Positions 1-8,866 of a DNA stretch of 8,866 nt are shown here, piece by piece (position 1 is the first letter of the stretch; each line of letters opens with the position of its first letter). The position numbers and the translations under genes are program-made. The notes under the pieces are model-generated. The model saw nothing but the letters and a program-made list of their open reading frames with translations, had not been told where the DNA came from and made no database searches. The stretch is taken from NCBI GenBank assembly GCA_029210545.1, contig JARGFV010000102.1, positions 1 to 8,866 of the forward strand. Direction: 5' to 3'. Source of the DNA: a bacterium. GTDB taxonomy: Bacteria > BMS3Abin14.

Positions 1-4
1 TAAG

Positions 5-77
5 GAAAGGGAAAACGACGCTTTTCCCTTTCCGTGGAGCGAAAAGTCCCGGATTGGACTTTTTGCGACCCTATCAA
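5..77 (-). repeat. Structured two-hairpin repeat, left copy (reverse orientation)
   Basis: These 73 bases are the exact reverse complement of 8794-8866. Read on the minus strand, the copy starts with the leader TTGATAGGGTCGC. It then forms hairpin 1 (66-56 pairing with 49-39, 11 positions with one A-C mismatch that is a G-T wobble on the plus strand). A short TCCA linker follows, then hairpin 2 (33-22 pairing with 15-4, a perfect 12-base stem around a six-base loop). Including base 4 completes the hairpin 2 stem. The unit lies directly upstream of hemB in antisense orientation and leaves only 34 bases between it and the hemB ribosome binding site. No U tract follows either hairpin, so a simple intrinsic terminator is not supported. 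A REP/BIME-like extragenic palindrome is the closest known class. Confidence 0.9.
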
Positions 78-125: not shown

Positions 126-1097
126 ATGCAATACCCAATCTACAGGCCGCGCAGGACGCGAAGGACTCAGACCCTGCGGCGCATGGTCAGGGAGACGAGG
201 CTTTCCCCGGACAACTTCATCTATCCCCTGTTCGTGGTCCACGGCGAGGGTGTGAGGAAAGAGATCGGCGCCATGCCCGGCGTGTTCCAGCTCTCGGTGG
301 ACGAGATCGTCAGGGAGTGCCGCGAGTGCTGGGGCCTGGGCGTCCCTGCCGTCATCCTGTTCGGCATCCCCGATCACAAGGACGAGTCGGGCTCCGAGGG
401 GTGGGATCCGGAAGGCTCCGTCCAGAAGGCGGTGCGGGCCATCAAGGCCGAGATCCCCGAGATGGTGGTCATCACCGACGTGTGTCTTTGCGAGTACACC
501 AGCCACGGCCACTGCGGCCTCATCGAAAACGGTGAGGTGTTAAACGACCCGACCCTGGAACTGCTGGCAAGGACCGCCCTGTCCCACGCCGTGGCCGGGG
601 CCGACATCGTGGGGCCTTCGGACATGATGGACGGCCGGGTTGCGGCCATCCGCGACCTTCTCGACGATGAGGGGCACAGCGACACCATCATCATGTCCTA
701 CGCCGTCAAGTATGCGTCGGCATTTTACGGCCCGTTCCGCGAGGCGGCCGAGTCCACCCCCCGGTTCGGCGACCGGCGGGCCTACCAGATGGATCCCCCC
801 AACGCCGTGGAGGCCATCCGCGAGGCGGCCCTGGACGTGGAGGAGGGAGCCGACATCATCATGGTCAAGCCGGCCCTTCCGTACCTGGATATCATCGCCT
901 CCCTGCGTGACCGTTTCGACATGCCCCTTGCCGCCTACAACGTGAGCGGCGAGTACTCCATGGTCAAGGCGGGAGCAAAAATGGGCTGGATCGACGGCGA
1001 ACGGGTCATGATGGAGTCCCTCATCTCAATCCGCAGGGCCGGCGCAGGCATGATCCTGACCTACTTCGCCAAGGAGGCCGCACGGCTGCTTGGATAG
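126..1097 (+). CDS. hemB: Delta-aminolevulinic acid dehydratase (porphobilinogen synthase)
   Basis: HemB condenses two molecules of 5-aminolevulinate into porphobilinogen, the first common step of tetrapyrrole (heme, siroheme, corrin) synthesis in the cytoplasm. The 323-residue product is full length for the family. The two Schiff-base lysines are visible: K195 in [15 protein letters not shown] and K248 in [13 protein letters not shown]. The cysteines of the [14 protein letters not shown] motif (C120, C122, C130) mark the zinc-binding form rather than the aspartate-rich, magnesium-only form. The basic N-terminal arm (YRPRRTRR) is typical of the octamer-forming family. The ATG at 126 is supported by GGAGG at 112-116 with a 9-base gap. 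The stop codon lies inside the conserved leader of the following structured repeat. The 172-base gap to ruvX suggests a separate transcription unit. Identification is by motif and is near certain. Confidence 0.97.
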
Positions 1098-1162
1098 GGT
1101 CGCGAGAGGGCCTGCCGGGCCCCTCGCTCAACGCAACGGGAAAAACGTCGTTTCCCCGTTGC
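1093..1162 (+). repeat. Structured two-hairpin repeat, diverged middle copy
   Basis: This copy begins with GATAGGGTCGC, identical to 8796-8806, and includes the hemB stop codon. Hairpin 1 pairs 1102-1112 with 1118-1127, with A1107 bulged. The linker is TCAA at 1128-1131. Hairpin 2 pairs 1133-1144 with 1151-1162 around the loop ACGTCG, with one A-C mismatch. Hairpin 2, with the base before it, aligns without gaps to 8837-8866 plus one more base beyond the window. In hairpin 2 two pairs changed on both sides (G-C to C-G, A-T to C-G). In hairpin 1 about three A-T/T-A pairs became G-C. The paired changes show that the fold, more than the sequence, is kept. Position right after hemB would suit a transcript 3' end, but there is no U tract. 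Confidence 0.82.
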
Positions 1163-1165
1163 TCA

Positions 1166-1216
1166 CGAACCAGGGACGCAAATAATGGTCCCAGGTTCGG
1201 GCGCCCACGCGGGCGC
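1166..1216 (+). other. Two further hairpins in the hemB-ruvX spacer
   Basis: Directly after the structured repeat, 1166-1177 pairs with 1188-1199 (11 pairs and one A-A mismatch) around an A/T-rich ten-base loop. Next, 1201-1206 (GCGCCC) pairs perfectly with 1211-1216 around ACGC. Together with the preceding copy, the spacer folds into four consecutive stems. They may be additional parts of the repeat unit, because the copies at the window edges are cut off before this point. Alternatively they may be a separate 3' processing or termination structure. No U run follows either stem, so an intrinsic terminator is not claimed. I found no convincing promoter for the downstream operon between 1217 and 1257. 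Confidence 0.6.
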
Positions 1217-1269
1217 GTTGATGACTTCTGTCGATGTCTTCAGCCATTGGGCAGATCAAGGGACAGGAC

Positions 1270-8642: not shown

Positions 8643-8648
8643 AATGTT

Positions 8649-8682
8649 GTCATTGCGAGCCACCTTCGGCGAAGCAATCCCG
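8649..8682 (+). repeat. REP-like palindrome (CATTGCGAG...GAAGCAATCCCG)
   Basis: The sequence folds as ATTGC 8652-8656 with GCAAT 8674-8678, a small internal loop, then GCC 8659-8661 with GGC 8668-8670 (the first pair G8659-C8670) and a six-base loop. The wording GTCATTGCGAG...GAAGCAATCCCG resembles a dispersed extragenic palindrome type known in several bacterial genomes, usually present in many copies. Only one copy is in this window, so its repetitive nature is inferred from resemblance rather than shown. Confidence 0.55.
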
Positions 8683-8711
8683 GTAATTGCTGCATCCTCA
8701 CGCTAAATCCC

Positions 8712-8760: not shown

Positions 8761-8793
8761 CTTGGCATGTGCAATTGCTTTTAATATCTAACA

Positions 8794-8866
8794 TTGATAG
8801 GGTCGCAAAAAGTCCAATCCGGGACTTTTCGCTCCACGGAAAGGGAAAAGCGTCGTTTTCCCTTTC
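8794..8866 (+). repeat. Structured two-hairpin repeat, right copy (cut by the window end)
   Basis: This copy is identical to the reverse complement of 5-77 over all 73 bases. Leader TTGATAGGGTCGC; hairpin 1 pairs 8805-8815 with 8822-8832 (one A-C mismatch); linker TCCA 8833-8836; hairpin 2 starts at 8838 and pairs with the end of the window around loop GCGTCG, lacking only its last base, which the left copy supplies. Flanking sequence outside the unit differs from the left copy (AACA against AAAG before the leader), which fixes this edge of the unit. Confidence 0.9.

Follow-up and report, generated by a model that had tools for sequence, protein, structure and literature searches.

What is the hairpin-rich repeat whose first bases include the hemB stop codon in this stretch of DNA, and what keeps its stems paired while their sequence changes? 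The window, that is, the whole 8866-bp stretch analysed, is an entire contig (C102) of a 2.72-Mb MAG assembled in 241 contigs. It encodes hemB, ruvX, a YceG-like gene, a PmbA/TldD peptidase, a Cache-HAMP-HD protein, a FecR-domain protein and a TPR protein. We consider it highly probable that the repeat is a gene-less MITE that would be moved in trans by the transposase of an IS1182-like insertion sequence (IS), with the pairing of its stems most likely maintained at the level of DNA.

The copy after hemB and the family it belongs to

The two hairpins originally noticed at 1093-1162 (predicted fold of -34.2 kcal/mol) are the first half of an element of about 152 bp at 1093-1244. The element directly adjoins the end of hemB, and the hemB stop codon TAG (1095-1097) sits within its first bases, GATAG (1093-1097). 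Hairpins H3, H4 and a degraded H5 continue downstream of H1-H2 in the order seen in complete copies elsewhere, and therefore we take the unit to comprise five hairpins. Two further copies lie at the window edges:

1-75, minus strand: young-type copy, left 75 nt (H1-H2), cut by the contig end
1093-1244, plus strand: old, diverged full-length five-hairpin MITE copy (cmsearch 132.3 bits over model positions 1-156)
1102-1127, plus strand: hairpin H1
1133-1162, plus strand: hairpin H2; relative to the common type, two of its pairs differ on both sides and one is an A.C mismatch
1166-1199, plus strand: hairpin H3, whose stem varies most within the family
1201-1216, plus strand: hairpin H4, GCGCCCACGCGGGCGC
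1217-1244, plus strand: degraded H5, which forms the right terminal inverted repeat (GTTGATGACTT...)
8796-8866, plus strand: young-type copy, left 71 nt, cut by the contig end

The edge copies differ very little from each other, and the window is a contig whose assembly broke off at these repeats; the two therefore amount to one variant. That the contig stops at two element copies also explains the 73-nt perfect inverted repeat joining the window ends; a composite transposon was considered for these inverted ends and rejected, as they are contig ends at repeats. Outside the copy at 1-75, positions 76-81 read AAAGTT on the element strand, which fits the AAnnTT target described below, and outside the copy at 8796-8866, positions 8790-8795 read AACATT. 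The copy at 1093-1244 is old and carries no recognisable target-site duplication (TSD).

Comparison of 1-75, the sequence from 1093 onward and 8796-8866 bears out the leader, linker and hairpin-2 loop that the earlier note had described as shared by the three copies. Hairpin 2, which aligns without gaps, has two pairs changed on both sides exactly as claimed (G-C to C-G and A-T to C-G), and one further pair, absent from that description, has become an A.C mismatch in the window copy. The estimate of about three changed pairs in hairpin 1 also holds, with a bulged A shifting the register.

The internal order of the element is H1-H2-H3-H4, followed by H5, which is the right terminal inverted repeat (TIR). 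Among copies the modules [H1-H2] and [H3-H4] may be absent or tandemly repeated, giving sizes from 46 bp (bare TIR pairs) to ~370 bp (repeated modules). The element has neither coding capacity nor a transposase gene. The further copies that the earlier note proposed to look for are plentiful: the host genome holds on the order of 200 (322 first-look candidates; 189 exact left-end 14-mers), counts that rest on 60 stretches (~1.16-1.17 Mb of host genome) plus fetched loci, with crude gene calls. The proposed covariance model, built from 18 diverse copies, detected the element in 11 of the 12 phylum genomes compared (all one family, eight genera). Outside the phylum, 49 genomes searched with the model yielded no element apart from one marginal match (E 2.7e-4). 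The element is present in the MAGs PFL40 and SZUA-204, the latter matching at the places where G007 does. We found no copy in the plasmids searched and no description of this element in the literature searched. Rfam gave no match to the element at the gathering threshold, nor any with E≤0.5 where the element lies in the window.

The covariation is strong and exceeds the controls. From an alignment of 18 diverse copies (several genomes and genera) made without structural guidance, RNAalifold recovered the first four hairpins unaided; 15 pairs showed changes in both partners. When the structure is supplied, 93.7% of the cells in this alignment pair, and 16 pairs are changed on both sides against 6.9 expected after shuffling; the covariation score is 0.182, compared to 0.098 for shuffled alignments, and was reached by 0 of 500 shuffles. 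As a further control we slid the partners by 1-3 columns, which gave 1-5 pairs changed on both sides. Conservation is higher in stems than in loops, and across genera the hairpins keep their order, number and linker sequence. At two pairs of H3 (77-109 and 78-108) double changes exceed one-sided intermediates.

Ends, insertion sites and a candidate partner IS

MITEs are defined by TIRs, a TSD, small size, high copy number and absence of coding capacity. The left terminus of the element, GAYAGRGTCGCAAAAAGTCC, and the right, GGACTTTTTGCGAGTCCATC, form an imperfect inverted repeat of about 20 bp, the two ends reading GAYAGRGTCGCAAAAAGTCC / GATGGACTCGCAAAAAGTCC. In the 58 two-ended copies the flanking six bases match at 4.64 of 6 positions, compared to 3.55±0.10 for shuffled partners, and 25 of the 58 have flanks identical over all 6 bp. 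The excess is confined to positions -1 to -6 and is gone at the seventh base. The TSD is replicated in relatives and other genera (3.96 versus 3.18±0.16) and is also visible in elements of Desulfobacterota MAGs that share these ends around a different interior. Insertion targets follow the consensus TCAAnnTTGA, with a 6-bp duplication at AAnnTT; this strong AAnnTT preference partly masks the TSD signal. Other Desulfobacterota MITE families with the same ends, starting with GATGGCGTCGCAAAAAG or similar and differing in their interior, are found at L152, L162, L166, L169, L174 and L179.

By crude gene calls, only 10 copies (not counting those at stretch ends) fall inside genes, where ~84% of random placements would lie. 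Use of intergenic gaps is as expected from all gaps (35 tandem, 12 convergent and 11 divergent), and between tandem genes 18 copies lie in sense and 17 in antisense orientation. The hemB-ruvX gap is free of the element in five relatives (G001, G004, G006, G009 and G010), while in G003 copies after hemB start about 30 bp further on and are probably separate insertions. In relatives hemB ends in other stop contexts, without the element there.

Taken with these features, the case for a MITE is strong, and the element is filed as one because a 1665-bp IS in the same genome has similar terminal repeats. This IS is present in one copy (L033:15758-17422, G000:C1) and encodes a 520-aa protein with DUF772 and DDE_Tnp_1 domains. 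It was reached via a DDE_Tnp_1 transposase search combined with relaxed end matching; a strict ends-plus-TSD scan of 1.17 Mb of host genome returned no IS ends with an identical TSD. Of the 20 bases of the MITE right end, its TIRs, GATGGACCCGCAATTAGTCA / GACGGCATCGCAAAAAGTAT, share 16 and 15, respectively, and they abut AACCTT and AATATT. A Desulfobulbaceae MAG and a Desulfocapsa MAG carry homologous ISs with ends of this kind, and the flanks of the three ISs found are AAnnTT-like and non-identical (AACCTT/AATATT; ATATTT/AATTTT; AAATTT/AATATT). The best NCBIfam model for the host IS protein is IS1182, at 116 bits and below the 270-bit cut-off. The host IS thus resembles the IS1182 family in its DUF772 and DDE_Tnp_1 transposase and in its best model, but differs in staying under the model cut-off and in having plasmid relatives that are just 23-36% identical. 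The similarity of the ends suggests that this IS1182-like DDE transposase is the likely agent that moves the MITE in trans, and it gives this MITE group, whose end sequence recurs across Desulfobacterota, a likely partner IS. The unequal flanks of the three ISs, and the agreement of the host IS ends with the MITE ends at just 15-16 of 20 bases, weigh against this account.

Bacterial MITEs, such as MITEAba12 as presented in PMC6382973, resemble the element in shortness, lack of coding, TIRs, TSD, high copy number and in having their ends in common with an IS resident in the genome. Unlike them, the element has an interior in which covarying palindromes, up to five or more, line up in repeated modules. 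Further differences are its 6-bp TSD at AAnnTT and ends that resemble those of a distantly IS1182-like IS.

Two neighbouring observations concern other elements. At L193:926-3017, in the Desulfobulbaceae MAG, an IS1182-like IS lies between two short elements in opposite orientation, possibly a composite. In MAG SpSt-1226 the contigs L159, L160, L165 and L181 end in one ~120-bp sequence, which closes with the shared right end and is probably another mobile element with these ends; the body of this candidate IS end was not found in the bin.

The RAYT gene of the host

Interspersed intergenic palindromes, modular arrays and many copies are equally hallmarks of the REP/REPIN/BIME systems associated with RAYT (REPINs are reportedly described in PMC3116915), and a REP-like unit moved by a RAYT-type transposase was among the possibilities raised in the earlier note. 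Its suggestion to look for a RAYT gene succeeded, as the host genome encodes one above the NCBIfam cut-off (84 versus 80 bits), about 840 bp from an element copy; what fails is the association, since the presence of RAYT and that of the element do not coincide. G006 and G007 have many element copies and no RAYT match, the absence in G006 being the weaker evidence because that genome is ~80% complete compared to 98% for G007. Conversely, G001 encodes two RAYT genes and has no element copies, and G002 has RAYT and only two element copies. The host RAYT gene (L032:1459-2118, G000:C150) is bordered by inverted repeats of its own, of CTCTGACACC type, which look unrelated to the element.

REPs are not known to duplicate their target on insertion and lie mostly 3' of genes, avoiding divergent gaps. 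The element, unlike REP/REPIN/BIME, has TIRs and a 6-bp TSD, shows no dependence on RAYT and no gene-context bias, its copies being spread evenly across convergent, tandem and divergent gaps. Hairpins and modular arrays, which the REP reading expects, are present in the element copies, but given the TIRs, the TSD and the RAYT distribution we reject an origin in which RAYT (TnpA-REP) mobilises single-stranded hairpins as very improbable. No relative of the host RAYT was found in the viral contigs searched. An IS200/IS605-type TnpA at L031:1492-1926 adjoins fragments of another transposase.

What keeps the stems paired

Covariation is routinely read as proof of functional RNA. If the stems were selected in a transcript, one-sided changes giving G-U should outlast those giving A-C on the same strand. 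Among the unique helices of H1-H4, which are not phylogenetically independent, we count 55 G-U and 57 A-C cells (p = 0.92); with the poorly paired terminal pairs dropped, the counts are 41 and 50 (p = 0.40). In a small control from the same data, 15 tRNA acceptor stems, there are 5 G-U and 0 A-C. Because A-C mismatches equal G-U wobbles, the covariation looks strand-symmetric. In the earlier note, the idea of a mobilised, structured repeat family stands; the use of covariation as direct proof of selection on RNA is weakened by these equal intermediates.

The strong covariation, the conservation of stems above loops (which selection on structure would also give) and an architecture kept across genera would all fit a row of hairpins that is spread by transposition and selected at the RNA level as a 3' mRNA stabiliser, non-canonical terminator or small RNA. 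We regard such a functional RNA as improbable, given the equality of one-sided G-U and A-C changes, the near-equal sense and antisense orientations with no bias in gap type, and the absence of the element after hemB in five relatives. The stabiliser suggested in the earlier note would sit poorly with 18 sense against 17 antisense copies and no preference for convergent or tandem gaps. As to the suggested terminator, the two copies scanned contain no terminator-like site (a GC stem followed by a T run), and with no orientation bias either, we reject a terminator or 3'-UTR role. A known RNA family is likewise rejected, there being no Rfam match. The equal G-U and A-C counts, the lack of orientation and gap bias, and the lack of a terminator-like site in the two copies lead us to conclude that pairing is kept strand-symmetrically. 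With A.C as frequent as G.U and both orientations equal, its upkeep most likely takes place at the DNA level, through hairpins or cruciforms and/or template-switch repair, rather than by selection on a transcript.

Within that DNA-level explanation, published work shows that template switching can create and maintain compensatory changes in hairpins (PMC8794818). The covariation might therefore be purely mutational, with switching at quasi-palindromes rewriting one arm from the other and no selection on structure at all. This possibility, which concerns the upkeep of pairing and is compatible with a MITE, deserves serious attention even if the balance is somewhat against it. It accommodates the symmetric G-U and A-C counts and the excess of double changes over one-sided intermediates at H3 77-109 and 78-108, and the element resembles the published quasi-palindrome hairpins (PMC8794818) in its compensatory double changes, often without wobble intermediates; those were described for RNA genes, whereas here a mobile DNA element is concerned. 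Repair alone does not explain why hairpin order, number and linkers are kept across genera. Since stems are also more conserved than loops, purely mutational repair is no full explanation. Tentatively, and on the whole with less likelihood, the element could represent a class of bacterial MITE whose row of palindromes is under selection for a function that it performs as single-stranded or cruciform DNA. If so, the palindromes might serve, for example, as binding sites for a transposase or host factor, and their covariation would report the structure of DNA, not of RNA.

The reading that we favour combines a mobile element with DNA-level upkeep. A short element with TIRs and no genes inserts at AANNTT, duplicating 6 bp; a distantly IS1182-like IS with similar ends would supply the DDE transposase that moves it in trans. 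Pairing of the stems is held across copies by paired changes, and would be maintained by DNA hairpins or cruciforms that form as the DNA replicates or transposes, by template-switch repair of quasi-palindromes, or by both. The combination of strong covariation without RNA-type strand asymmetry is a caution for RNA discovery by covariation. With about 200 copies in a single genome and further ones throughout a small phylum, the family is a large natural set that can act as a test bed for separating RNA selection, DNA-hairpin selection and template-switch repair.

Elsewhere in the window, positions 8645-8685 (TCATTGCGAGCCACCTTCGGCGAAGCAATCCCG) carry a sequence that we take to be similar to another widespread interspersed bacterial repeat.
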